Below, in pieces: positions 181 through 58,192 of a DNA stretch of 64,000 bases. The translations under genes were made by a program, and so were the position numbers. Position 1 is the stretch's first letter, and each line of letters begins with the position of its first letter. The stretch is from Cheilinus undulatus (lineage: Eukaryota; Chordata; Actinopteri; Labriformes; Labridae): positions 2,753,177-2,817,176 of the forward strand of contig NC_054886.1 of assembly GCF_018320785.1 (NCBI RefSeq), given 5' to 3'. A model generated the notes under the pieces. That model was not told the DNA's origin and ran no database searches. It saw nothing but the letters and a program-made list of their open reading frames with translations.

Positions 181-1325
181 GTGGTGCCATTCATCATGGT
201 GATCCTGCTGCTCCTGCAGCCCACCCTGGACCTGCTGCTCCTCCTGCAGCCCACCCTGGACCTGCTGCTCCTCCTGTAGCCCACCCTGGACCTGCTGCTC
301 TTCCTGCAGCCCACCCTGGACCTGCTGCTCCTCCTGTTGCCCACCCTGGACCTGCTGCTCCTCCTGTAGCCCACCCTGGACCTGCTGCTCCTCCCTCTGC
401 TTCATTTGCTCCTGTAGATCCTCCTGCAGCTCCTGCCTGTCCTGCATTTCTTCCTGACACTCCTCTTGCTGCTAATCTTCATGATCCTGCTGCTCCTTCT
501 CCTGCTGAGCCTGCTGCTTTTCCTGTCCATCCTGTTGTTCCTGTTGCTGTTCATCCTTTCCCTGGAGCTCATCCTCATGCTGCTCCTGCTTATCCTTTTG
601 TGTATCCGTACTCTTATTCTCCTGCTTATCCTTTGGCATATCCTCCAGCTTATGCTCCTTCTCTGTATGCTTATCCCTATGCTTACTCTCCTGCCTATCC
701 TTATTCTTATTCTTACCCTAATGCTTATCCTTATGCTTTCCCTCACGCTGATCTTCCTTTCCCCCATGTCGGTCCTGAGGTTCATCTTCCTTTTGTTGAC
801 CCTTTACCTCCTTTCCAACATGAGGACCCTGAACCTGAGGCTGACCCTATTGCTGCTGCAGTTGATCAGTTTCTTGCTGACCAACGGCAGCAAGTGGACT
901 TGATGCAGCAAGAAGATGATCATCCAGAGGATGATTATGAAGAGCATGATCATCTAGTGGATGATTATGAAGAGCGTGATCATCTAGTGGATGATTATGA
1001 AGAGCATAATCATCTAGAGGAGTATGATCCAGAGCGTGATGTTTTATGGGAAGAGTCAGAGTCAGAGTCTGGCAGCGAGCATCCTGAGGCAGACCAGGAT
1101 GGGGATATGATCCATCTCCCGTCCATTGCTGTCGAGAACATCGGACCAGGTGATTCCGACAGCTCTATGCCAGAGGATGAGGACAGCTACAATAACAACC
1201 CTGTTCCATCGACTTCTGGACTCTGCTCTTCAGGGAGACGACGAGTGAGGGAGGACAGCGATGATGATGAGGAGGGTCCTGCTGCCAAGAGGCTGAGGGG
1301 GGCTGATGACAGCGACTCAGACTGA
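181..1325 (+). CDS. Pro/Tyr-rich protein with acidic C-terminus, last exon (copy A)
   Basis: This is a long open exon ending at TGA 1323-1325. It has no ATG near its start: the frame is open upstream, but the first in-frame ATG is at about 903, inside the acidic part. Two acceptors precede it in the same phase, AG at 161-162 and at 179-180, and both need one base from an upstream exon. The protein begins with six copies of a 10-residue HPGPAAPP-type repeat, then a Pro/Ala/His segment, a Tyr-rich low-complexity segment (repeats such as AYPYAYSPAYPYSYSYP), an acidic repeat DDYEEHDHL (three copies), a PSTSG motif, and a basic patch AAKRLRG inside an Asp/Ser/Glu tail. The patch looks like a nuclear localisation signal. 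Its first exon must lie left of the window; the homologous first exon of copy B is at 25,095-25,143. Function unknown. Confidence 0.6.
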
Positions 1326-2669: not shown

Positions 2670-3715
2670 TAAAGTTATTTGTCCTCCGTTGAGGGCTGGT
2701 GGTGGCGGGTTTAGAATATTCTGAATATTAATTGTCTAGTTAATTAATTTTCAATTATAATAAAAAATATTTCTAAAATTTAAGAAAAGTAAAGTATTGT
2801 ATTTATTTTGCATAGAATAAAGTTATTTGTCCTCCGCTGAGGGGGGGTGGTGGTGGGTTCAGCAAATAAAAGATATAAAAAGTCAAATTTAGTTATTTAA
2901 AAATAGAATGAAAGTAGTTCTAGTATTTAACAAAGTCAAACTGCTCTTGTATTTTCCTGGGAATAAAGTTATTTGTCCTCCACTGAGGGGTGGTGGTGGT
3001 GGGTTCAGCAAATAAAAGATATAAAAAGTCAAATTTAGTTATTTAAAAATAGAATGAAAGTAGTTCTAGTATTTAACAAAGTCAAACTGCTCTTGTATTT
3101 TCCTGGGAATAAAGTTATTTGTCCTCCGCTGAGGGGGGGTGGTGGTGGGTTCAGCAAATAAAAGATATAAAAAGTCAAATTTAGTTATTTAAAAATAGAA
3201 TAAAAGTAGTTCTAGTATTTAACAAAGTTAATCTGCTCTTTTATTTTCCTGGGAATAAAGTTATTTGTCCTCCACTGAGGGGTGGTGGTGGTGGGTTTAG
3301 CATATAAAAGATATAAAAAGTCAACTTTAATTATTTAAAAATAGAATAAAATTAGTTCTAGTATTTAACAAAGTCAATCTGCTCTTTTATTTTCCTGGGA
3401 AAAAAGTTATTTGTTCTCCACTGAGGGGTGGTGGTGGTGGGTTCAGCAAATAAAAGATATAAAAAGTCAAATTTAGTTATTTAAAAATAGAATGAAAGTA
3501 GTTCTAGTATTTAACAAAGTCAAACTGCTCTTGTATTTTCCTGGGAATAAAGTTATTTGTCCTCCACTGAGGGGGTGGTGGTGGTGGGTTTAGCGTTTTT
3601 AAGATATAAATAGTCAAATTCATTATTTGAAAATAGAGTAAAAATAGTTCTAGGATTTAACAAAGTAAAATTGCATATTTATTTGAATAGAATAAAGTTA
3701 TTTGTCCTCTGCTTG
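2670..3715. repeat. Tandem array, about 146-bp unit
   Basis: Each unit begins near AATAAAGTTATTTGTCCTCC, runs through a G-rich GAGGGGTGGTGGTGGTGGG core and an AT-rich tail with TTAGTTATTTAAAAATAGAA. About seven units are visible, the internal ones nearly identical. The G-rich core could form a quadruplex and recurs every 146 bp. Copy B has a shorter version at 30,290-31,045. Confidence 0.9.
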
Positions 3716-5087
3716 GGGGGGGGGTCATCAGAGTAACTGTAAGTAAGTAGGTGTAAGTAAATGTAAGTGTTCAACCACCTTCAGGGACAGTGGGGGTCCC
3801 CGGTCTCTGGCACCTTTATTTTGGGGGTCATGGGCTGAAAAGGTGGAGAACCACTGAGGTAGAGGAAGAACAAGTCCACTAGGTGGCGGTGTTGTGTTGA
3901 AAACTAAACCAACACCTTGTGTCTGCTCTGACTGTTTGCCAGAGTTACACTGCAGGTAAATAAAGAAAAGAAATGTCATTTCTGTGTTGCGTTCTTTATT
4001 TCAGTGCTTCCAAGCAATACCAATTTCTACAAGGCATATGAAGAATAAGGTGATAGTGCTGTTTTTGAGCAGGTTTTTATTGTGGAAAGAAACCCAGAAA
4101 AGGCTAAGCACCCTCACACAAAGTGGAGAATATTAAACTGTTTGTAAGCATAATCAACCAAGCACAGTCAAGAACTGTACAACGCTGTGTAATAAAACAT
4201 TTTTGTATCAGTAGTGAGCATCACTCAGGCAGGGGTTTCCAAACTTTCCATATAAAGATCACGGCAAAACTGGACAGAGTGCTGGCACTATGGCACTGAG
4301 AGAAAGAGAGCACTGACCAGCAGAGGAAGCATCATTTCTGTCCAATGTTGCTCCACTTAACCCTCGGTACATACCTTAAAATTGACATACACTTGTTAAC
4401 CTCTAGCACACAAACGGTCCGTCTCATTAAAGTGCTATAAAAAAAAATATATTTTTTTTTTACTTTCACTGCATCAGATCTCTTCAACAACTTCAGACAT
4501 ATCCACAGATATAAAGTTTATTATATTTTTAAATATTGTTTATGTTTTTATGGTCTTTTTTCATTAGAACCCCTAATTTTTTCAACGGGAAAAACACAAA
4601 ATGTGCAACATTTCCAAAAAATGGGTGCAAAGTGAAACATTTTTGATGAATATTTTACAGCCTTGACCATGTCAATAATTGATAAGAATATTGATTTTAA
4701 TGCATTATTATTTTTGGCACAATGAGAGTTTTAAAAAACAATTACACCTGTTCACCTCGTGTACACAAACAGTCCGTCTCATTAAAGTGCTATAAAAATG
4801 TAATACATGAATATTTTTTTAAACTTTCACTGCATCAGATCTCTTCAACAACTTCAGACCTATCCATAGATATAAAGTTTATTGTAATTGTTCAATATTT
4901 TTTATGTTTTATGGTCTTTCTGTCATTATGATTTTTTCAATGTGAAAAACACACAAATCTCTCATCATCGCCCTCCATTGAATTGTCTTCACAACAACTA
5001 ATGACCAAAGTACCGAGTGCTGTGTCACTCACAAAGAGCTGGGCATAAAAATCCCAGGATTAGAGCAGGACAGTGCGAGCCAGCTGT
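3716..5087. other. Interspersed-repeat remnants, no gene seen
   Basis: This contains a hAT-like terminus around 3,770-3,870 (GGAGAACCACTGAGG), a second repeat edge at 4,232 (AGGGGTTTCCAAACTTTCC), and two diverged direct copies of a roughly 350-bp AT-rich unit (near 4,390-4,600 and 4,740-4,950) sharing GTCCGTCTCATTAAAGTGCT and ACTGCATCAGATCTCTTCAA. Copy B has the same arrangement plus one extra insertion. Confidence 0.5.
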
Positions 5088-12915: not shown

Positions 12916-14196
12916 CTAGCTCTCTTTTTTGACACATTTGTGTGTTTTCACCTCAGAGCTCTTTGTGAAGCTTTTCTCACAACCAACACACCAGTACGGC
13001 CTGTGTCCGGTGTGGATACGCAGATGCTCCTCAAAACTATGAGCTGAAACAAACTTTTTGTCACAGTGCTCACACTGGTACTCTCTGACTCCAAAATGGA
13101 TGAGTTTATGTTGGCGAAGTGAAAATAACCTACCAAAACTCTTCCCACACTCCCCACAGACGTATGGTTTCAGACCGGTGTGGACGCGTTCATGTGTGAT
13201 GCATTCCCATTGACTTTTGAAGGCTTTCTCACAGTGTCTACATTTGTGCGGTTTCTCTCCAGTGTGGATCTGCTGGTGGACTGTTAAGTTGTTTTTATTT
13301 CTGAAGGTTTTCCCACATTGGTCACAGCTGAAGGGTTTCTCTCCAGTATGGCTCTGCTGGTGGACTGTTAAGTTGTTTTTATTTCTGAAGATTTTCCCAC
13401 ATTGGTCACAGCTGAAGGGTTTCTCTCCAGTGTGGATCTGCTGGTGGACTGTTAAGTTGCTTTTTTGCCTGAAGGTTTTCCCACATTGCTCACAGCTGAA
13501 GGGTTTCTCTCCAGTGTGGATCTGCTGGTGGACTGTTAAGTTGCTTTGTTGCCTGAAGGTTTTCCCACATTGCTCACAGCTGTACGGTTTCTCTCCAGTA
13601 TGAATGCGGCGGTGTACGCTGAGGTTTGCTAAGTTTGAGAAAGCTTTCCCACACTGATCACAACTGAACGGCTTTTCTCCAGTGTGGCGGCGTTGATGGA
13701 TCCTTAGAATACTTGCTTGAGAGAAGGCCATACCACATTGCTCACAGCTGTATGGTTTCTCTTCAGTGTGAATACGCTCATGATAGTTTAAAGCACTTTG
13801 ACTAGTATAGACTTTACCACAATCCTGACAAGGGTAGAGTAATTCTCTGGTGTGGATGTTTCTGTGAGTCTTGAAGCTACCCACCTGACTGAAACTTTTA
13901 CCACAGTCCTCACATTTGTATGGTTTTACTTCGGTGAGAGTGCGTATATGATTCTTCAATGCAGTTGAACTTCTGAAAGCTTTCCCACAGATCTCACAGC
14001 TGTATGGTTTCTCTCCAGTGTGGATACGCTGATGCATCCTTAGATGACTTGCTTGAGAGAAGGCCATACCACACTGATCACAGCTGTATGGTTTCTCTCC
14101 AGTGTGAACTCGCATATGCTTCTTTAAATTTGATGAACAAGAGAACTCTTTACCACACTGCTGACAGTCATGACTACGAGGCGTGCCCCTCCGTTT
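12916..14196 (-). CDS. Polydactyl C2H2 zinc-finger protein, main exon (copy A, 15 fingers)
   Basis: The exon starts after the acceptor at 14,198-14,197 (TTGTTGTTCTAG), reads [18 protein letters not shown] and runs to TAG at 12,916. Fifteen finger units follow, mostly joined by TGEKP linkers. Finger 3 has lost its final His (RTL) and the last finger is C2HC (THKCVKKES). Fingers 8 to 11 are near-identical tandem copies; their predicted DNA-contact residues at helix positions -1, 2, 3, 6 are Q,S,N,V twice and N,N,N,V twice. No KRAB, SCAN or BTB domain is visible. It is probably a nuclear DNA-binding repressor-type protein; the target is unknown. The likely 5' exon is 16,643-16,744. An L1 starts about 150 bp past the stop. 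Confidence 0.88.
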
Positions 14197-24146: not shown

Positions 24147-24780
24147 CTCTACCTGAACTTCAGAAGACAAAGGCAGTGATTTATTACTGACTTGTGGGGT
24201 TTTTAAAGTTCATTTACTGTTTGACATTCAGTTGAATCTCCCTCTGAAGTCCAAGAAGCAGCATTTGCATAGCCATTCCTTATGGTAATGGAGATTAAGA
24301 GATGAACTTCATCAGGTGATAACTATGACTCAGCTACCACTCAGGAAAGTCTATCAGGACTAAATATTTACTACAGACATGGACCTTTTCAAAAAGGATT
24401 TCAAACCTTTGCCACCTTGAGTGGTACTGATATCTGAAATGTTGGGGTCTGGCCCATGGACTATATGACATCATTTAACTGCACAATATTTACACAGTGG
24501 CCATTTTGATTCTTGTAAAATGACAGATTTGGTGGGAGTGAAGGGTAACTTATTTAAATATGTTTTTTTAATTGTATAATGTTTCCTGCTAATATGCTAA
24601 TGATAACTGATGGTTCTGGGCTGGAAACACTTGTAAAAAGAATAATTCGGCTCTAAAATACAGGAAAAGAGCTTCATTTGGTCAGATTCTCTTCCACACA
24701 TTTTGGTTTTTCCCCTTAAACTTTATAAATCCTCTTTATTTCTCATAACCCAATTATTCAGATTTATTTTTGAGATTGTT
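24147..24780. other. Upstream flank of the copy B Pro/Tyr-rich gene
   Basis: AT-rich sequence without recognised elements or exons. It leads directly into the promoter candidate. Confidence 0.4.
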
Positions 24781-24789
24781 TTATTTTCT

Positions 24790-24870
24790 GTGTCGTGCAC
24801 TCACATGCGCGTGCGTCACTCACACGCGTCACTCGTTGCCATGGTAACATCCGTGACGTTTGATTCGAAG
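24790..24870 (+). promoter_or_regulatory. Promoter candidate: palindromic X-box and CRE-like sites
   Basis: GTTGCCATGGTAAC at 24,835-24,848 is a full palindromic X-box, the binding motif of RFX factors. TGACGT at 24,854-24,859 follows after five bases, and GCGTCAC-type half sites lie at 24,811-24,832. The cluster is locally GC-rich in an AT-rich neighbourhood and lies about 250 bp upstream of the start codon at 25,095. A seven-codon upstream ORF (24,871-24,894) would be in the leader. RFX plus CREB sites occur together in ciliary/testis and in MHC-type promoters; which applies here is not shown by the sequence. No clear CCAAT box follows. Confidence 0.6.
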
Positions 24871-25094
24871 ATGACAGCCAAAGAACTTTTTTGAATTTAT
24901 CGTTCCATTCAGACTTTACACCCGTTGGCCTGACTGTTGAAACTGTTTGGAGAGCGAAAACTTTGGAGAAAACTTTCTCTACAGCCGGAAATCAAACACC
25001 TGGACAAGTGAAATCTTCAACAAATAATCTTAATAAATAATCAAAATCAAAATCATCTAGAAATACCTGGTGAAAATAAAGCTCTACCACCGTG

Positions 25095-25143
25095 ATGGAC
25101 CGCCTGCTGGCCTGGGTCAGACGATGGCTAACCAGCCTTGCTA
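25095..25143 (+). CDS. Pro/Tyr-rich protein, first coding exon (copy B)
   Basis: ATG at 25,095 has G at -3 and G at +4, a strong start context. The 49 coding bases give MDRLLAWVRRWLTSLA plus one base, then the donor GTAAGA at 25,144. The phase-1 end matches the one-base need of the acceptor at 27,671-27,673, creating a Ser codon and joining to GAIHHGDPAAP. The 16 residues form a helix with Leu/Trp/Val on one face and Arg on the other, suggesting a membrane- or partner-binding amphipathic helix. This model is inferred from splice signals, phase and position; no transcript evidence is available. Confidence 0.6.
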
Positions 25144-27673
25144 GTAAGACATCCTCATATTTTCACCAATAAATGTATTTTTAAAACAATCTTTATTTCT
25201 GTCTTCATGTCTTTAGATGTGTTTTATTCCAAATATGCTGTAAAATTAGATGAATTATCTCATGTAAAGATCGACAGCTAATCTAAATGTAATTCACCTG
25301 TTAGCAAAACACAAAATGTTCGATTAAGGCTAGTCAAAGTTTTGCTGATTTACAGTGATTATTTTATGCTGAGATGTGCTTATTTATCGTTGCTCAACTC
25401 TTCAAATATATTTGTTCAAATAAAAGTGTATTAAAATCGTCTTTAAAATCGTGTATTTCTGGTTAATAGTCTCAGTAAATATCAGCAGCTCGGCTAACAG
25501 AAGTGTCATTGACCTGTTAGCAAACACAGACTGTTGGATATATGCTGTTTTCTTGATTTAAAAGGTTAAATAATAATCAATTGTAATTATTTATCATGAC
25601 TTCATTATTTAGACTGATGTAAATAAAATTAGTATAATTCTAACACTAGTATTGGAATTAGCATTTTGTGAACATGAATTGGTATCTTGTAGTCATGAAT
25701 TAGCATTTTGAGGTCACAATTTAGTATTTTGTGGTCATGAATTGGTATTTTGTGGTCATGAATTAGTATTTTGTGGTCATGAATTAGTATTTTGTGGTCA
25801 TGAATTAGTATTTTGTGTCCATAAATTGGTATTTTGTGGTCATGAATTGGTATTTTGTGGTCATGAATTGGTATTTTGTGGTCATGAATTAGTATTTTGT
25901 GGTCATGAATTAGTATTTGTGGTCATTAATTAGTATTTTTTGGCAATGAATTGGTATTTTGTGTCCACTAATTAGTATTTTGTGGCCATGAATTTGCATT
26001 TTGTGGACATGAATTAATACTTTGTCTGCACGTTATAGGTATATTGGGGCCACAATACAATATATTTTTTGACCACGTCATCTCTGGGGCTCTGTAGTCA
26101 TTAGAAAACAGATGTGTTCTGTTCGAAAAACACTTTTATTTTGGTTTGATGGCATCAGATTCTACTAAATTAGGTGTTGAGATCTGGCCTTATTGATGGA
26201 TTCAGATTTTTTCTCAGATCTTATTCTTTTTGTTTGCCTGTTCACACTGCAGTTGAACTCCAAAGATCAGATACATATCTGAGTTAGAACCACATATGAA
26301 AGTGGCCTGAATCTGGTTGGAAAAGGTCAGATTCAGTGTGACTTGTGCTGTTCACACTGTCAGAAAAAATCAGATATAAGTCACATATGAGCAAAAAACT
26401 TCATATTCAGGTGACTTTTAACTAACAAAAAGCATTTTTGGACTTCAGACATATGAAAATAATTTAGGAAGGTTGGTGGCAAATACAAGGATGTTAATGA
26501 GCATGTGTATTTAATAGAGCTTGTTCCACTGAGGAGAAGGTTTATTTTTTTAACATGGTTGTTGAAGTTTAGTCAGATATATTGATCCTTTCTTTCATCA
26601 ATATTTTAAGAGATTTGTTAGGAATATTTTGGCCTTGTTCATATATTTTAATATGAAAAGAGGGATCAGGGTTTTTATGATTCCCGACTCCTCCACGTGT
26701 TTGATTTACGTGTGATAAATAAATTAAAAATATAAGATCATTTGTGTTTTTAGCTCATATTTATTGAGCTAGATTTAATAAAGACATTCACGTTTTGGCA
26801 TGTAATCACTCAAATATGAATATTTCCTCTCCATGTTTCAGATCAGACAGAAGATATTTATCACAGCTATTTGTTTTATTATTGGGAATATATTCATGTT
26901 TTATTATTGGGAATATATTCATTAAAAAGAAAATATGTTTTTATTAGTGAAAACAAGATAGAGATAATTTAAAAAGTGCCAGTGAAAGTGATTTTTAATC
27001 TCCAAAATTCAGTTATTTATAGTCATTGTATTATTATTAAAAAATAACTGTTGAATCTACTTAAGGAGTAGTTTTCAGGACGTATATCCGTTAAAACAAC
27101 TGCTGTATCATAGTAAACCTTCTAATTATGTCAGTTTACTATCAGCTGGACCAAAATATCTCCCCTGGTTGTAATGGTATTTTATTTATCAGGTTGTGAT
27201 TGTGGATGTTTCTTCTTACATGGACTCAGTTTCATAGCACACTTGTTTGTCCATTAGCAGAGCTGGGTGCCTGTCTGTTAATTGTTACATATCATCATAA
27301 AGGTTTTATTTACATTTTATCATAGATTTGAAACTGAAATATGATTAATGAAACCACTGACTTTTGTGAAATTCAGTTTCTTTTAACTTCATTTTCTAAC
27401 AAATGCGTCCTGGGTTTGCCCCCATTATGTTTGAAATAGAAGAAGGATCCAAACCCTGATCTGACATACAGAGCTGCTGATATGCAAACTGAGTAAAGAG
27501 CATTAATGCGCCATAAAATCAGTGATGTATATGAACATAGAGTGCAGTTATTGTAGATAATATAATGTTTAAGTTTTATCATCAAAAAGGTTAATTATGT
27601 CTGACAGCCTCTTGTTTCAGTCTATTTTATGGACGTACAAATCTTAACTTTTTAGATATTGTGTCTCCTCTAG
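25144..27673 (+). other. Intron of the Pro/Tyr-rich gene (copy B)
   Basis: 2.53 kb, GT-AG. It contains a 21-bp tandem array and, at about 26,080-26,420, a dispersed repeat with CTGTTCACACTG motifs. The rest is AT-rich and featureless. Its last 180 bases are the part also present at the left edge of the window in copy A. Confidence 0.5.
25650..26015. repeat. 21-bp tandem repeat, about 17 copies
   Basis: The unit ATGAATTAGTATTTTGTGGTC is repeated with small changes; central units alternate between TTAGT and TTGGT. A 63-codon open frame across it simply reads the repeat (FCGHELV) and is not a gene. Confidence 0.9.
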
Positions 27674-28728
27674 GTGGTGCCATTCATCATGGTGATCCTG
27701 CTGCTCCTTCTGCAGCCCACCCTGGACCTGCTGCTCCTCCTGCAGCCCACCCTGGACCTGCTGCTCCTCCTGTAGCCCACCCTGGACCTGCTGCTCCTCC
27801 TGTAGCCCACCCTGGACCTGCTGCTCCTCCCTCTGCTTCATTTGCTCCTGTAGATCCTCCTGCAGCTCCTGCCTATCCTGCATTTCTTCCTGACGCTCCT
27901 CTTGCTGCTAATCTTCATGATCCTGCTGCTCCTTCTCCTGCTGAGCCTGCTGCTTTTCCTGTCCATCCTGTTGCTGTTCATCCTTTCCCTGGAGCTCATC
28001 CTCATGCTGCTCCTGCTTATCCTTTTGTGTATCCGTACTCTTATTCTCCTGCTTATCCTTTGGCATATCCTCCTGCTTATGCTCCTTCTCTGTATGCTTA
28101 TCCCTATGCTTACTCTCCTGCCTATCCTTATTCTTATTCTTACCCTAATGCTTATCCTTATGCTTTCCCTCATGCTGATCTTCCTTTCCCCCATGTCGGT
28201 CCTGAGGTTCATCTTCCTTTTGTTGACCCTTTACCTCCTTTCCAACATGAGGACCCTGAACCTGAGGCTGACCCTATTGCTGCTGCAGTTGATCAGTTTC
28301 TTGCTGACCAACGGCAGCAAGTGGACTTGATGCAGCAAGAAGATGGTCATCTAGAGGATGATTATGAAGAGCATGATCATCTAGAGGATGATTATGAAGA
28401 GCATGATCATCCAGAGGAGTATGATCCAGAGCATGATGTTTTATGGGAAGAGTCAGAGTCAGAGTCACAGTCTGGCAGCGAGCATCCTGAGGCAGACCAG
28501 GATGGGGATATGATCCATCTCCCGTCCATTGCTGTCGAGAACATCGGACCAGGTGATTCCGACAGCTCTATGCCAGAGGATGAGGACAGCTACAATAACA
28601 ACCCTGTTCCATCGACTTCTGGACTCAGCTCCTCAGGGAGACGACGAGCGAGGGAGGACAGCGATGATGATGAGGAGGGTCCTGCTGCCAAGAGGCTGAG
28701 GGGGGCTGATGACAGCGACTCAGACTGA
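27674..28728 (+). CDS. Pro/Tyr-rich protein with acidic C-terminus, last exon (copy B)
   Basis: This exon joins the one at 25,095-25,143 to give about 367 residues, or 373 if the alternative in-phase acceptor at 27,654-27,655 is used. Order of segments: amphipathic helix, four HPGPAAPP repeats, Pro/Ala/His linker, Tyr-Pro low-complexity region of about 60 residues, acidic repeat DDYEEHDHL (two copies), PSTSG, basic patch AAKRLRG and a DDSDSD tail. Compared with copy A it lacks two proline repeats, one acidic repeat and a three-residue VVP-type insert, and has extra QS and S residues. Every difference is a multiple of three bases. Low-complexity Tyr/Pro sequence plus a nuclear-type tail suggests a condensate-forming or scaffold nuclear protein, but this is a guess. 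Confidence 0.62.
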
Positions 28729-28899
28729 TTCTGTAGTCGTCCATCAGAACTCTTTGGCTGGATTGGTGCAGCACCATCCTTCACATCACATGACCATAGA
28801 TTCTGGAGGACTCCTTCACCCTGGTTGGATTTTTGACACCCTGAGTGGAATCTTACACCAGGATTTATAATTACCAGGACAGGCAAAATGCCTGAGAAC

Positions 28900-29480
28900 A
28901 AGCCTCTGCATCTGGCTGGGCTCAAGACAACGGACCCATTCTCGAGCCATTTATTTCTTTAATTGTAGGGACAATGGACCCTTTCAAATCTTGCCTTTGC
29001 GTCTGGCGGGGCTTCTTGTTTTTTTTGTAGTGCAGGGATAACGGACCCTTTAAACTCTTAACAAGCCTTTGCGACTGGCGGGGCTTCTCATTCACAGGGT
29101 AGGGATAACAGACCCTTTAGACCCTTAGAACAAGCCTTTGCGACTGGCGGGGCTTGACAACCCGAGTAGCGTCTTGCACCGGGACATTTCCTTTTTTACT
29201 TGCACTAGGGAAAACGGACCCTTTTTGACATCTTGCCTTTGCGTCTGGCTGGGCAAGATAGTCCTCAAGGAGCCTCTGCATCCTGCAGGGCTTCAAAGAT
29301 CCCAGGTAGCGTCTTGCACCGGGATTTTAACAGCCTACCTCTTTTTCTTGAAGCACGAGGAAGTATCGACTTGTCTTGCAACTCGAGGGATCCTGAGGCA
29401 TCGCTGTCCTTTGCAGGAACAGCGATGCCTCAGGTCACTCTTGCGTCTGGCAGGGCTGTCGACACCTCGTGTATTTAACA
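28900..29480. repeat. Degenerate GC-rich tandem repeat, copy B
   Basis: Counterpart of 1,495-2,075, with the same unit phrases (CCTTTGCG, CTGGC, GGGCTT, ACGGACCCTTT). It lies just 3' of the copy B stop codon. Confidence 0.75.
29392..29434 (+). other. Perfect 16-bp stem hairpin (copy B)
   Basis: Stem arms 29,392-29,407 and 29,419-29,434 with an 11-base loop, identical to the copy A hairpin at 1,989-2,031. Confidence 0.8.
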
Positions 29481-30289
29481 GGACAGGAACATAGGAAAGA
29501 AGACGGACCAGAAAGCTGCACCATGGGAAACTCCCTAAAGGCTGTTGGACCACAGCTCACACCAGGATCTGGAAGGTACCAGATGTTCTAAAGCTTGGGG
29601 ATGCCTGGACCACATGGACCTGGATCAGTCTGGAGTTTAGTGGAGTTCATGCAGCGAGAAGAACTCGAGGAACAACCCACTAACCTGGATTTAACGAAGG
29701 ACGTCTCAGGCAAGCTCCTCCCATTCAGGTAACACAAACAACAAAGGTAAGTATGGAGCTCTGGATCAGCTCAGACAGTGGAGCAGGCGCCTCATAGCCC
29801 TATCCATCAATTTCTCAAGACAGGGTGCAAATTTCAGGGTAGCTGAAACTCTAGGGCGTAGTTACACAAGACTAAAAAGCAAGAAGAAAAAAAAAAATAT
29901 ATATATATATATATATAGATAGATAGATAGATATGCTAGCAGTAGTTTTCAAAACATATGTTAAAGTAGAGAATAAGTTAAAGTTGTCTGAAATTAAAGA
30001 CCTAAAAATACTAAAGTATTAGATGTAGAATAATAATTAAAAATAATAATTAAAATAATAATAAGAAATGAATTAAAGACAAAAGAGGGAAAATCAGCAG
30101 ATTTACCATGATACAAACATTGAGCAGAATTCAGTTTATATTTTGGAGTTTAAAACTAGATTAAAAAAAAAAAAGTTTTGGCATCTAATTAAGTGATTTT
30201 TTTCAGTAAAGTTGATTTATATGTCATCAAATGGGGATAGTGGGTTTAAATTCTTACAATAAAGTCATAAAGAAAAAACAGTTATTAAA
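29481..30289. other. Copy B-specific segment and simple repeats
   Basis: From 29,652 to about 29,900 copy B differs from A: an ATG at 29,648 opens MQREELEEQPTNLDLTKDVS and reaches a GTAAC donor-like site near 29,732. There is no partner exon that I can identify. An AT/GATA microsatellite follows at 29,891-29,930, then AT-rich sequence shared with copy A. Confidence 0.4.
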
Positions 30290-31045
30290 AGTAAAGTTAT
30301 TTGTCCTCCATTGAGGGCTGGTAGTGGCGAGTTTAGAATATTCTGAATATTAATTGTCTAGTTAATTAATTTTCAAATATAATAAAGATAATTTTTAAAA
30401 TTTAAGAAAAGTAAAATATTGTATTTATTTTGCATAGAATAAAGTTATTTGTCCTCCGCTGAGGGGGGGTGGTGGCGGGTTTAGCATATAAAAGATATAA
30501 ATAGTCAAATTTAATTATTTAAAAATAGAATAAAAGTAGTTCTAGGATTTACAAAGTCAATCTGCTCTTTTATTTTCCTGGGAATAAAGTTATTTGTCCT
30601 CCGCTGAGGGATGGTGGTGGTGGTGGGTTTAGCATATAAAAGATGTGAATTGTCAAATGTAATCATTTTAAAATAAAATTTAAAAAGTTCTAGGATTTAA
30701 CAAAGTAAAATTGCTCCTTTATTTGAATAGAATAAAGTTATTTGTCCTCCACTGAGGGGGGGTGGTGGTGGGTTTAGCATTTTTAAGATATAAATAGTCA
30801 AATTAATTATTTGAAAATAGTATAAATGTAGTTCTAGGATCTAACAAAGTAAAATTGCCCATTTATTTGAATAGAATAAAGTTATTTGTCCTCCACTGAG
30901 GGGGGGTGGTGGTGGGTTTAGCATTTTTAAGATATAAATAGTCAAATTAATTATTTGAAAATAGAATAAAAGTAGTTCTAGGATTTAACAAAGTAAAACT
31001 GCATATTTATTTGAATAGAATAAAGTTATTTGTCCTGCGCTGAAG
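30290..31045. repeat. Tandem array, about 146-bp unit (copy B)
   Basis: Five to six units of the G-rich/AT-rich repeat also seen at 2,670-3,715, with more divergence between units than in copy A. Confidence 0.85.
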
Positions 31046-31866
31046 GGGGGGTAACTCCGTTACTGTTGAGTGGTCATCAGAGTAACTGTAAGTAAGTAGG
31101 TGTAAGTAAATGTAAGTGTTCAACCACCTTCAGGTAGAGTGGGGGTCCCTGGCCCCTGCACCTTTATTTTGGGGGTCGTGGGCTGAAAAGGTTGAGAACC
31201 ACTGAGGTAGAGGAAGAACAAGTCCACTAGGTGGCGGTGTTGTGTTGAAAACTAAACCAGCACCTTGTGTCTGCTCTGACTGTTTGCCAGAGTTACACTG
31301 CAGGTAAATGAAGAAAAGAAATGTCATTTCTGTGTTGCATTCTTTATTTCAGTGCTCCAAGCAATACCAATTTCTACAAGGCATATGAAGAATAAGGTGA
31401 TAGTGTTCTTTTTGAGCAGGTCTTTATTGTGGAAGGAAACCCAGAAAAGGCTAAGCACCCTCACACAAAGTGGAGAATATTAAACTGTTTGTAAGCATAA
31501 TCAACCAAGCACGGTCAAGAACTGTACAACGCTGTGTAATAAAACATTTTTGTATCAGTAGTGAGCATCACTCAAGCAGGGGTTTCCAAACTTTCCATGT
31601 AAAGATCACGGCAAAACTGGACAGAGTGCTGGCACTATGGCACTGAGAGAAAGAGAGCACTGACCAGCAGAGGAAGCATCATTTCTGTCCAATGTTGCTC
31701 CACTTACCCCTCGTACATACCTTAAAATTGACATACACTTGTTAACCTCTAGCACACAAACGGTCCGTCTCATTAAAGTGCTATAAAAATACATATATAT
31801 TTTTTTTACTTTCACTGCATCAGATCTCTTCAACAACTTCAGACATATCCACAGATATAAAGTTTA
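31046..31866. other. Interspersed-repeat remnants (copy B), no gene
   Basis: Matches 3,716-4,515 of copy A, including the hAT-like end with GTTGAGAACCACTGAGG at 31,191-31,207. Confidence 0.5.
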
Positions 31867-38411: not shown

Positions 38412-39383
38412 TTACATGTCGCTGCTCATGAGCACCCTCTTGCTCTCTTTTTTGACACATTTGTGTCTTCTCAGCCCAGAGCTCCTTGTGAAGCTTTTCT
38501 CACAACCAACACACCAGTACGGCCTGTGTCCGGTGTGGATACGCAGATGCTCCTCAAGATGGTGAGCTGAAACAAACCTTTTGTCACAGTGCTCACAGTG
38601 GTACTTTCTGACTCCAGCATGGGTGAGTTTATGTCTGCCAATTGAAAATGAACTACCAAAACTCTTCCCACACTCCCCACAGACGTATGGTTTCAGACCA
38701 ACGTGGACACGTTCATGTCTGATGCAGTTCCATTGATGTCTGAAGGTTTTCTCACAGTGTCTACATTTGTGCGGTTTATCTCCAGTGTGGATCTGCTGGT
38801 GGAGTGTTAAGTTGCTTTGATACCTGAAGGTTTTTCCACATTGGTCACAGCTGAAGGGTTTCTCTCCAGTGTGGGTGCGCTCATGGGTTATACGTGATGC
38901 TATTGCTGTGAATTTCTTTTCACAATATCTGCACTTGTATGGTTTCTCTCCAGTATGAATACGCTCATGATGCTTTAAAGCACTTTGATTAGTACAGACT
39001 TTCTCACAATCCTGACAAGGGTAGAGTAATTCTCTGGTGTGGATGTTTCTGTGAGTCTTAAAGTTACCCAACCGACTGAAACTTTTACCGCAGTTCTCAC
39101 ATTTGTATGGTTTCTCTCCAGTGTGCATGCGTATATGATTCTTCAATGCTGATGAATGTGTGAAAGCTTTCCCACAGATCTCACAGCTGTATGGTTTCTC
39201 TCCTGTGTGAGTTCGTTGGTGGATCTTACAATCCACTTTTCGAGCAAAATTTTTCCCACACTGATCACAGCTGTACGGTTTCTCTCCAGTGTGAACTCGC
39301 ATATGCTTTTTTAAACCTGATGAAGAAGAGAACGCTTTACCACACTGCTGACAGTCACGACTACGAGGCGTGTCCCTCCGTTT
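38412..39383 (-). CDS. Polydactyl C2H2 zinc-finger protein, main exon (copy B, 11 fingers)
   Basis: Acceptor TTGTTGTTCTAG precedes 39,383; the exon starts KRRDTPRSRDCQQCGKAF. Eleven fingers are visible with TGEKP-type linkers and the same C-terminal four-finger block as the other copies (contact residues differ slightly). The TAG stop used by copies A and C is AAG here, so the protein continues KRVLMSSDM to TAA at 38,412. The predicted DNA-contact residues of finger 7 are Y,S,N,L. No effector domain is visible. Candidate 5' exon: 41,856-41,957. Likely a nuclear sequence-specific DNA-binding protein, target unknown. Confidence 0.87.
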   Translation of the reverse strand, partial: KRRDTPRSRDCQQCGKAFSSSSGLKKHMRVHTGEKPYSCDQCGKNFARKVDCKIHQRTHTGEKPYSCEICGKAFTHSSALKNHIRMHTGEKPYKCENCGKSFSRLGNFKTHRNIHTRELLYPCQDCEKVCTNQSALKHHERIHTGEKPYKCRYCEKKFTAIASRITHERTHTGEKPFSCDQCGKTFRYQSNLTLHQQIHTGDKPHKCRHCEKTFRHQWNCIRHERVHVGLKPYVCGECGKSFGSSFSIGRHKLTHAGVRKYHCEHCDKRFVSAHHLEEHLRIHTGHRPYWCVGCEKSFTRSSGLRRHKCVKKESKRVLMSSDM

Positions 39384-53702: not shown

Positions 53703-54797
53703 CTAGCTCTCTTTTTTGACACATTTGTGTGTTTTCACCTCAGAGCTCCATGTGAAGCTTTTCTCACAACCAACACACCAGTACGGCCTGTGTCCGGTGT
53801 GGATACGCAGATGCTCCTTAAGATTGTGAGCTGAAGCAAACCTTTTGTCACAGTGCTCACACTGGTACTCTCTGACTCCAGCATGGGTGAGTTTATGTCT
53901 GCTAAGTGAAAATGACCTACCAAAACTCTTCCCACACTCCCCACAGACGTATGGTTTCAGACCGGTGTGGACACGTTCATGTATGATGCATTCCTGTTGA
54001 CTTCTGAAGGCTTTCTCACAGTGTCTACATTTGTGTGGTTTCTCTCCAGTGTGGATCTGCTGGTGAAGTGTAAAGTTGTTGTTATGCCTGAAAGTTTTCC
54101 CACATTGGTCACAGCTGAAAGGCTTCTCTCCAGTGTGGATCAGCTGGTGGCGTGTAAAGCTATTTTTAAGCCTGAAGGTTTTCCCACATTGCACACCAGT
54201 GTGAATACGCTCATGATACTTAAAAGCACCTTGATCAGTAAAGACTTCCCCACAATCCTGACAAGGGTAGAGTAATTCTCTGGTGTGGATGTTTCTGTGA
54301 GTCTTGAAGTTAGACAGCTGACTGAAACTTTTACCACAGTCCTCACATTTGTATGGTTTCTCTCCGGTGTGAGTGCGTATATGATTCTTCAATGCAGATG
54401 AATGTGTGAAAGCTTTCCCACAGAACTCACAGCTGTACCGTTTCTCTCCAGTGTGGCTACACTGATGGATCCTCAGAGTAATTGCTTGAGAGAAGGCCAA
54501 ATCACATTGCTCACAGCTGTACGGTTTCTCTCCAGTGTGGATACGCTGATGGATCCTTAGAGTAGTTACTCGAGAGAAGGCCATACCACACTGATCACAT
54601 TTGTATGGTTTCTCTCCAGTGTGAGTGCGTATATGATTCTTTAATGAAGATAACCTTGTGAAATCTTTCCCACAGATCTCACAGCTGTATGGTTTCTCTC
54701 CAGTGTGCACTCGCATATGCGTCTTTAAATCTGATGAATAAGGGAACTCTTTACCACACTGCTGACAGTCATGACTACGAGGCGTGCCCCTCCATTT
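53703..54797 (-). CDS. Polydactyl C2H2 zinc-finger protein, main exon (copy C, 13 fingers)
   Basis: Starts after the same acceptor with [18 protein letters not shown] and ends KES, TAG at 53,703. Thirteen finger units are countable, but between fingers 7 and 8 an in-frame deletion fuses RIHTGV to [15 protein letters not shown], removing the linker and the first Cys of finger 8, which therefore cannot fold normally. The C-terminal four-finger block matches copies A and B. The middle block has different fingers (for example [20 protein letters not shown]). Candidate 5' exon: 57,134-57,235. No effector domain seen. Confidence 0.87.
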
Positions 54798-57426: not shown

Positions 57427-58192
57427 CAAACAAGCCTATATTTACAGTTAAAACAAGCCTATATTCACAGTTAAAACAAGCCTATATTCACAGTTAAAAC
57501 AAGCCTATATTTACAGTTAAAACAAGCCTATATTTACAGTTAAAACAAGCCTATATTCACAGTTAAAACAAGCCTATATTCACAGTTAAAACAAGCCTAT
57601 ATTTACAGTTAAAACAAGCCTATATTCACAGTTAAAACAAGCCTATATTCACAGTTAAAACAAGCCTATATTTACAGTTAAAACAAGCCTATATTTACAG
57701 TTAAAACAAGCCTATATTTACAGTTAAAACAAGTCTATATTCACAGTTAAAACAAGCCTATATATTGACAGTTAAAACAAGCATATATTTTGACTGTTAA
57801 AACAAGCCTATATTTACAGTTAAAACAAGCTTACATTTACAGTTAAAACAAGCCTATATTCACAGTTAAAACAAGCCTATATTTACAGTTAAAACAAGCC
57901 TATATTTACAGTTAAAACAAGCCTATATTTACAGTTAAAACAAGCCTATATTTACAGTTAAAACAAGCCTATATTTACAGTTAAAACAAGCCTATATTTA
58001 CAGTTAAAACAAGCCTATATTTACAGTTAAAACAAGCCTATATCTACAGTTAAAACAAGCCTATATTCACAGTTAAAACAAGCCTATATCTACAGTTAAA
58101 ACAAGCCTATATTTACAGTTAAAACAAGCCTATATTTACAGTTAAAACAAGCCTATATTTACAGTTAAAACAAGCCTATATTTACAGTTAAA
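57427..58192. repeat. 23-bp minisatellite, about 33 copies
   Basis: Unit AAACAAGCCTATATTTACAG plus TTA, repeated about 33 times with mainly a T/C change (TATATTTACAG or TATATTCACAG). Variants are interspersed rather than clustered. It starts just past the C-module flank and ends within the inverted repeat of the following element. Confidence 0.95.

Follow-up and report, generated by a model that had tools for sequence, protein, structure and literature searches.

A predicted two-exon gene of Cheilinus undulatus and the 3' hairpin array that it shares with other candidate coding loci

Is a long Pro/Tyr-rich open reading frame whose first half lacks a start codon the second exon of a true gene and, if so, of what kind of gene? 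This question is raised by a locus in a 64,000-nucleotide stretch of the Cheilinus undulatus genome (C22:2753177-2817176, hereafter the window), where the original prediction had joined such a frame to a 49-base first exon and described the product as a single gene of no recognised family. The most unusual feature of the locus, an array of RNA hairpins, lies just beyond the part covered by that prediction. To the reading that the locus belongs to a lineage-specific, fast-evolving protein-coding gene family, driven by RFX factors, with disordered proteins and with mRNAs controlled by 3' hairpins, we give slightly better than an even chance.

The coding part of exon 1 (25095..25143, + strand) starts with the ATG at 25095, consists of MDRLLAWVRRWLTSLA plus one base (49 bases in total), and ends at the donor A/GTAAGA at 25144. 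It is followed by a phase-1 intron (25144..27673, + strand), whose acceptor CTCCTCTAG/GT has its last base at 27673, and by the coding part of exon 2 (27674..28728, + strand), which is open up to the TGA at 28726-28728. The stop-to-stop frame around exon 2 spans 27595-28728, and the joined product amounts to 16 + 1 + 350 = 367 residues. Both sets of exon coordinates, the matching phase, and the length of 367 residues were all recovered in the sequence. The complementary phase had also been put forward as an argument for splicing; the match is real but is no proof by itself, as 5.6 chance candidates are expected per 3 kb. Two ATG-to-donor stretches of compatible phase were seen in 24601-27600 compared with a mean of 5.6 in 300 first-order Markov resamplings, 98% of which contained at least one. 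Because such stretches are common by chance, the phase argument needs outside support, which is supplied by the copies in the source genome. A degenerate pattern of exon 1 (33 bases, no mismatch) gave six matches in the 1.17-Gb genome and none with the reversed control, and all six lie upstream of exon-2 copies. This conservation among copies supports the predicted two-exon structure. What did not stand is the picture of a lone gene, as there are eight close copies, half of them degenerate, belonging to a family with 21 loci or more.

Exon 2 was matched at no fewer than eight loci (19 matches, grouped by us), which we call copies A to H, the gene under study (25095..28728, + strand) being copy B. 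Copies A-D are located at C22:2.75-2.91 Mb, copy E at C5:5.60 Mb, copies F and G at C22:9.61 and C22:9.44 Mb, respectively, and copy H at C1:26.64 Mb. For copy A, exon 2 occupies positions 181..1325 of the window (+ strand) and the type-1 hairpins described below 1493-2059, with exon 1 beyond the left edge at C22:2750990. Exon 1 with its ATG, frame, and GT donor is present in six of the eight copies (A-F), and it was found at neither G nor H by pattern search and inspection of the loci. At copy G (L025), the expected position of exon 1, upstream of exon 2, is occupied by a Ty3/gypsy-like pol fragment, recognised by eye on the reverse strand (~3270-5050). The stop-to-stop open frames of A, B, C, and D comprise 389, 377, 427, and 368 codons; copy E has a frame change before the tail, copy F a stop and an altered end, and copies G and H are fragmented. 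Copy C (L021), like the divergent F, G, and H, has an additional module in its tail (PSTSG..PWEDSDSEEEEE-like), which is lacking in A, B, and D. The intron of the studied gene holds a 21-bp tandem array (25655-26025; 17.7 copies of GAATTAGTATTTTGTGGTCAT), and nothing in copy F corresponds to its middle part (~25630-27484). Copies A-D are situated among C2H2 zinc-finger frames, and A and B belong to a tandem duplication whose units are spaced by 24-28 kb. The exon-2 indels among A-D preserve the frame, which is only mild evidence because many of them are whole 30-base repeats.

Downstream of the stop codon, a 3' region of ~1 kb (28729-29751) carries a tandem array (28840..29462, + strand) of three kinds of hairpin-like units. 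Type 1, with a TTGCGTCTGGC-like loop, occurs seven times in units of 32 bases starting at 28896, 28987, 29059, 29128, 29229, 29266, and 29431. Type 2 (AGGG..ACCC; AGGG-loop-CCCT) is found at 28967, 29034, 29101, and 29207 by the strict pattern, with a fifth, degenerate unit, and type 3, with a GCGTCTTGC-like core, occurs three times (28840, 29161, and 29301) and pairs only in part in the printed register. All units lie on the + strand, as does a perfect 16-bp hairpin (29392..29434) within a longer predicted stem (~29340-29480). The predicted fold of 28830-29520 has a z score of -4.95, and 0 of 20 shuffles were as stable.

When type-1 units were selected by their loop only in 16 loci, 70 sense matches (49 distinct) were obtained, all 3' of the open frames and none at locus C12; antisense matches numbered 2 over 18 loci (the 16 plus L059 and L060). 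Their outer stem cells are paired in 168 of 245 cases versus 133.6 after shuffling (2000 shuffles, maximum 154). Covariation was tested for type 1 alone, with 40 of its 49 distinct hairpins. Pairing reached 79.3% versus 72.3% in shuffles (0/500 as high), the covariation score was 0.298 versus 0.193 (0/500), with lower scores in all six slid registers, and cells with both sides changed numbered 38 versus 24.9 (4/500), although related sequences may exceed such shuffles without any structure. The type-1 stems thus covary on three of five measures, as expected of a structured RNA element. Run against 30 sources totalling 295 kb, to which the sub-stretches L001-L019 did not belong, a covariance model built from the 40 hairpins yielded 105 matches with E no higher than 1, a figure that counts overlapping loci repeatedly. 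In our reading, all of these matches lie on the gene strand in 3' regions. A genome-wide scan for one exact loop pattern gave 39 matches (none with the reversed control), always at family loci and on the gene's strand, in 18 of the 21 loci; the hairpins of copies F, G, and H are matched by the covariance model only. Ten viral contigs carry the loop pattern once each, single matches that we judged to be due to chance. Rfam returned only weak matches, none at gathering score, for window positions 24500-30300 and four loci.

Parts of the 3' region are more conserved than the intron, namely 29261-29480 in copies F (p 0.0001) and G (p 0.012) and 29261-29751 in copy E (p 3e-6); the first part, 28729-28890, is not notably above the intron in E, G, and H (84-88% identity). 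An open frame does exist at 29129-29494, but a second coding frame within 28740-29751 was dismissed: two array spacings of 67 bases, not a multiple of three, and copies F and G being open in another frame led us to rate the stretch, by eye, as non-coding. At the end of the region, a possible donor AAAG/GTAAGT (29752..29757, + strand) is present in seven of the eight copies, copy A differing. It may lead to a further exon of the 3' untranslated region (UTR) beyond 29752, or it could instead form part of the tRNA-like head of a short interspersed nuclear element. The adjoining 29752-29793 is conserved and by eye resembles a tRNA-type box A (tRNA-like stretch 29762-29790), which a box-B-like GGTTCAACTCC continues in copy F and not in B-E, again by eye. 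A tRNA at this position was rejected, ARAGORN having called none in five sources.

A genome search with the DNA of the 3' region led to loci that lack the protein of the studied gene. Together with the eight copies, 10 loci of a Leu/Trp helical-repeat family and 3 of a second Pro/Tyr family bring the total to at least 21 loci on 7 contigs, and the array of type-1 hairpins, shared by all three protein subfamilies, is what unites the family. The Leu/Trp loci are found at C17:33.16-33.21 (four loci), C5:4.105, C11:8.208, C23:8.197 and 7.950, and C9:35.24 and 17.29, several of them with stops or in pieces. The loci of the second Pro/Tyr family (C11:12.417, C11:12.433, and C17:20.316) have the acidic part first and the Pro/Tyr part last. 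At another site, C12:44.767, similarity to the 3' region is limited to 74 bases, and locus L059 appears by eye to be 5'-truncated. In the Leu/Trp relatives on C17 and C11, an X-box precedes an ATG of their own. The 5' UTR of the studied gene aligns to that of the C17 relative with a score of 63 (maximum of 500 letter shuffles, 55), and those of the C11 and C17 relatives align with a score of 71 (letter-shuffled maximum, 52). By eye, the Pro/Tyr exon of C11:12.417 starts at a phase-1 acceptor (CACCTGTAG), the phase being that of the studied gene, and its exon 1 was not found in the 600 bases upstream. BLASTP between the second Pro/Tyr family and the studied protein gave 9e-6, both sequences being of low complexity. 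The model of the C11 Leu/Trp relative, based on an alignment in which some rows run partly out of frame, shows four longer helices with block values of the predicted local distance difference test (pLDDT) of ~70-94; in a fold search with it the best PDB match (E 0.18) was uninformative.

A promoter-like cluster had been suspected upstream of exon 1, and it proved sharper than claimed. A perfect palindromic X-box, GTTGCCATGGTAAC (24835..24848, + strand and, as a palindrome, both strands), is the sole such site in the window, where 0.03 are expected for this pattern, chosen after the site had been seen. It is followed by TGACGT at 24854-24859; the two motifs are of the RFX type and similar to a cAMP response element (CRE), respectively. 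The X-box is identical in copies A-D and by eye has one letter changed in E; the C17 and C11 relatives carry GTAACCATAGCAAC and GTAACCATGGCAAC, respectively, upstream of their ATGs. A perfect X-box is thus present in 6 of the 16 loci scanned (A-D, C17, and C11), always upstream of the start. RFX factors are reported to act via the X-box (PMC5838959), and male Rfx2-knockout mice are described as sterile (PMC4745085). Taken together, these observations make testis or ciliated tissue the first place to look, and expression of the predicted gene is probably RFX-driven in testis or ciliated cells.

In the predicted protein, the N-terminus had been called amphipathic, which agrees with a hydrophobic moment of 0.62 (2% of shuffles as high). 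Exon 2 encodes, in this order, Pro decapeptide repeats (27697-27830; period 30, 4.5 copies, 98% matches), a Pro/Tyr region, one predicted helix, and an acidic tail with RRRAR...AAKRLRG; the repeats, the Tyr/Pro region, the acidic tail, and AAKRLRG, all named in the original prediction, were each located there. The AlphaFold2 model of exon 2, from an alignment of five of the eight copies in which the row of copy E has a shifted end, has a mean pLDDT of 50 with a single helix at exon-2 residues 200-223 (helix blocks ~70-80), suggesting a mostly disordered protein. Pfam gave no domain for exon 2 of the studied gene, a best E of 0.42 (below cut-off) for copy A, and none or below cut-off for the relatives, and a PDB sequence search gave no match at E up to 1.

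From these features a mechanism can be proposed. RFX factors would activate the gene, the likeliest setting in fish being spermatogenic or multiciliated cells, and joining of the 49-base coding exon to exon 2 would yield the 367-residue, mainly disordered protein. Its amphipathic N-terminal helix may anchor it, the Pro/Tyr repeats could supply weak, multivalent, condensate-like contacts, and the basic patch within the acidic tail might direct it to the nucleus. At the RNA level, the same hairpin row after very different proteins suggests that the family messages share one control signal: a single RNA-binding protein would recognise the nearly constant GC-GUCUG-GC loops (~7 after this gene) and thereby jointly control translation or placement of the family mRNAs. 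A wider form of the idea, that the family is held together by its ends (hairpins, X-box, and in two subfamilies the 5' UTR) with the coding body exchanged and one germline RNA-binding regulator in charge, we regard as tentative and rather doubtful.

How far the protein itself is constrained was assessed by the ratio of nonsynonymous to synonymous substitutions (dN/dS; Nei-Gojobori, Fisher test). Against copy F the ratio is 0.54 for B (p 0.008), 0.55 for D (p 0.009), and 0.60 for C (p 0.012), and in the tail against copy H it is 0.31 for B (p 0.0004) and 0.39 for C (p 0.002), p-values that are indicative, given the sequences common to several pairs and the damage to F and H. The A-F ratio is 0.63. 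The protein thus seems constrained over longer distances yet fast evolving.

Besides the shared and damaged sequences behind these p-values, several observations weigh against the reading of an RFX-driven, hairpin-controlled coding family. The ratios of A-D with G (0.66-0.68) and with the first piece of H (0.83-0.86) are higher, those among A-D range over 0.46-1.1 and do not differ from neutral for B-D (p 0.12) or A-C (p 0.24), and the in-frame part of B-E gives 0.95 (p 0.56). Exon 1 is more conserved than the 5' intron in copies F (90% versus 80%, p 0.056) and E (94% versus 90%, p 0.25), which is the right direction and not significant alone. Only four of the eight copies (A-D) are intact, the other four being broken or truncated, and a perfect X-box is missing in 10 of the 16 loci scanned (including F, G, H and the C5, C23, and C9 relatives), whose 5' parts may be lost or lie outside the stretches scanned. 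The 5' UTRs of the studied gene and the C11 relative show no homology (327/500 shuffles as high), and the resemblance between the acidic tail and that of the Leu/Trp family (35 columns at a probability of 74%, hhalign E 2.9e-5) reflects low-complexity acidic sequence. For the hairpins, two type-1 measures (pairs changed on both sides and further pair types) are neutral, with 272/500 and 348/500 shuffles as high, and types 2 and 3 stand outside the covariation result, type 3 pairing being partial. A nuclear or condensate role of the protein, finally, is suggested by composition only.

The same observations can be read in other ways. Three different protein bodies ahead of the same kind of hairpin, and copies G and H, where exon 1 was not found yet the 3' regions are 84-93% identical with hairpins kept, would fit a 3' hairpin RNA as the functional unit, either a structured non-coding RNA or an mRNA tail, with the protein incidental or freely changing. 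We consider this unlikely given open frames of 350-420 codons in A-D and the C11 relative and of ~300 in C17, together with the low tail ratio against copy H (0.31). The four broken copies, the near-neutral ratios among A-D, and the tandem duplication of A and B would instead be explained by decaying segmental duplicates in a zinc-finger cluster that have lost expression. That explanation appears to us quite improbable, as X-box, exon 1, and frame are all intact in A-D, where the exon-2 indels keep the frame (mild evidence), and as constraint is seen when the more distant pairs, B-F and the B-H tail, are compared.

A mobile or virus-derived element with unrecognised termini, hairpins included, would account for 21 loci over 7 contigs, for their differing bodies, and for the tRNA-like stretch (29762-29790, by eye) after the 3' region. 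Such an origin is very unlikely in our judgement: exon 1 and the intron are kept in A-F, the loop pattern is confined to family loci (39 of 39 matches), the viral contigs show single, chance-like matches, and no tRNA was called by ARAGORN in the five sources.

Elsewhere in the window, three C2H2 zinc-finger frames lie in duplicated units (12916-14196, 38412-39383, and, on the minus strand, 53703-54797), with four further zinc-finger frames of 180 or more codons within the next 120 kb, and frames that look to be of the Tc1 type are also present in the sequence. Tandem repeats of ~144-146 bp are found downstream of gene copies at 30292-31052 and 2670-3725, and several units of the former carry by eye AATAAAGTTATTTGTCC, giving a row of polyadenylation-like signals. 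A 23-bp-period tandem array of ~760 bases occupies 57428-58192 (self-comparison offsets).

Gene families restricted to one lineage have been described before; one recognised by a shared, covarying 3' hairpin array behind different proteins is, to our knowledge, unusual. If the array is transcribed, it would allow the complete family to be traced in other fish, would provide an RNA motif for which Rfam has no match at gathering score, and would make it possible to test directly whether fast-evolving proteins are jointly controlled by one RNA-binding protein. The 49-base first coding exon is moreover an example of how annotation could miss a gene.

Literature searches (by titles) gave no description of this protein or hairpin, and in a letter search of papers the 11-base string TTGCGTCTGGC occurred in three papers, unrelated by title, with peptide strings unmatched. 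The fish oogenesis-related gene (org) is reported to be fish-only, with six exons and 221 residues (PMC9369028). It resembles the studied gene in being a fish gene; by description, identity was rejected on exon count and length (two coding exons and 367 residues here). With RFX-target (X-box) genes of spermatogenesis and cilia the studied gene, like A, C, D, and two relatives, shares a perfect palindromic X-box, here located ~250 bases ahead of the ATG; unlike those target genes it has no Pfam domain, and its RFX binding is predicted only. The first exon of a Pim-like kinase, considered as a lead, was dismissed because the exon-1 pattern is confined to A-F and exon 2 has no Pfam domain. Tyr/Pro low-complexity proteins, such as Bucky ball, have an aromatic, proline-rich region that is alike by composition only. 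As for the hairpins, the 3' UTR stem-loops of iron-responsive, histone, and Smaug elements differ in that the present ones are arrayed ~7 times with two further hairpin-like units and without an Rfam family, but they have in common a near-constant loop on a covarying stem, placed 3' of a coding frame.

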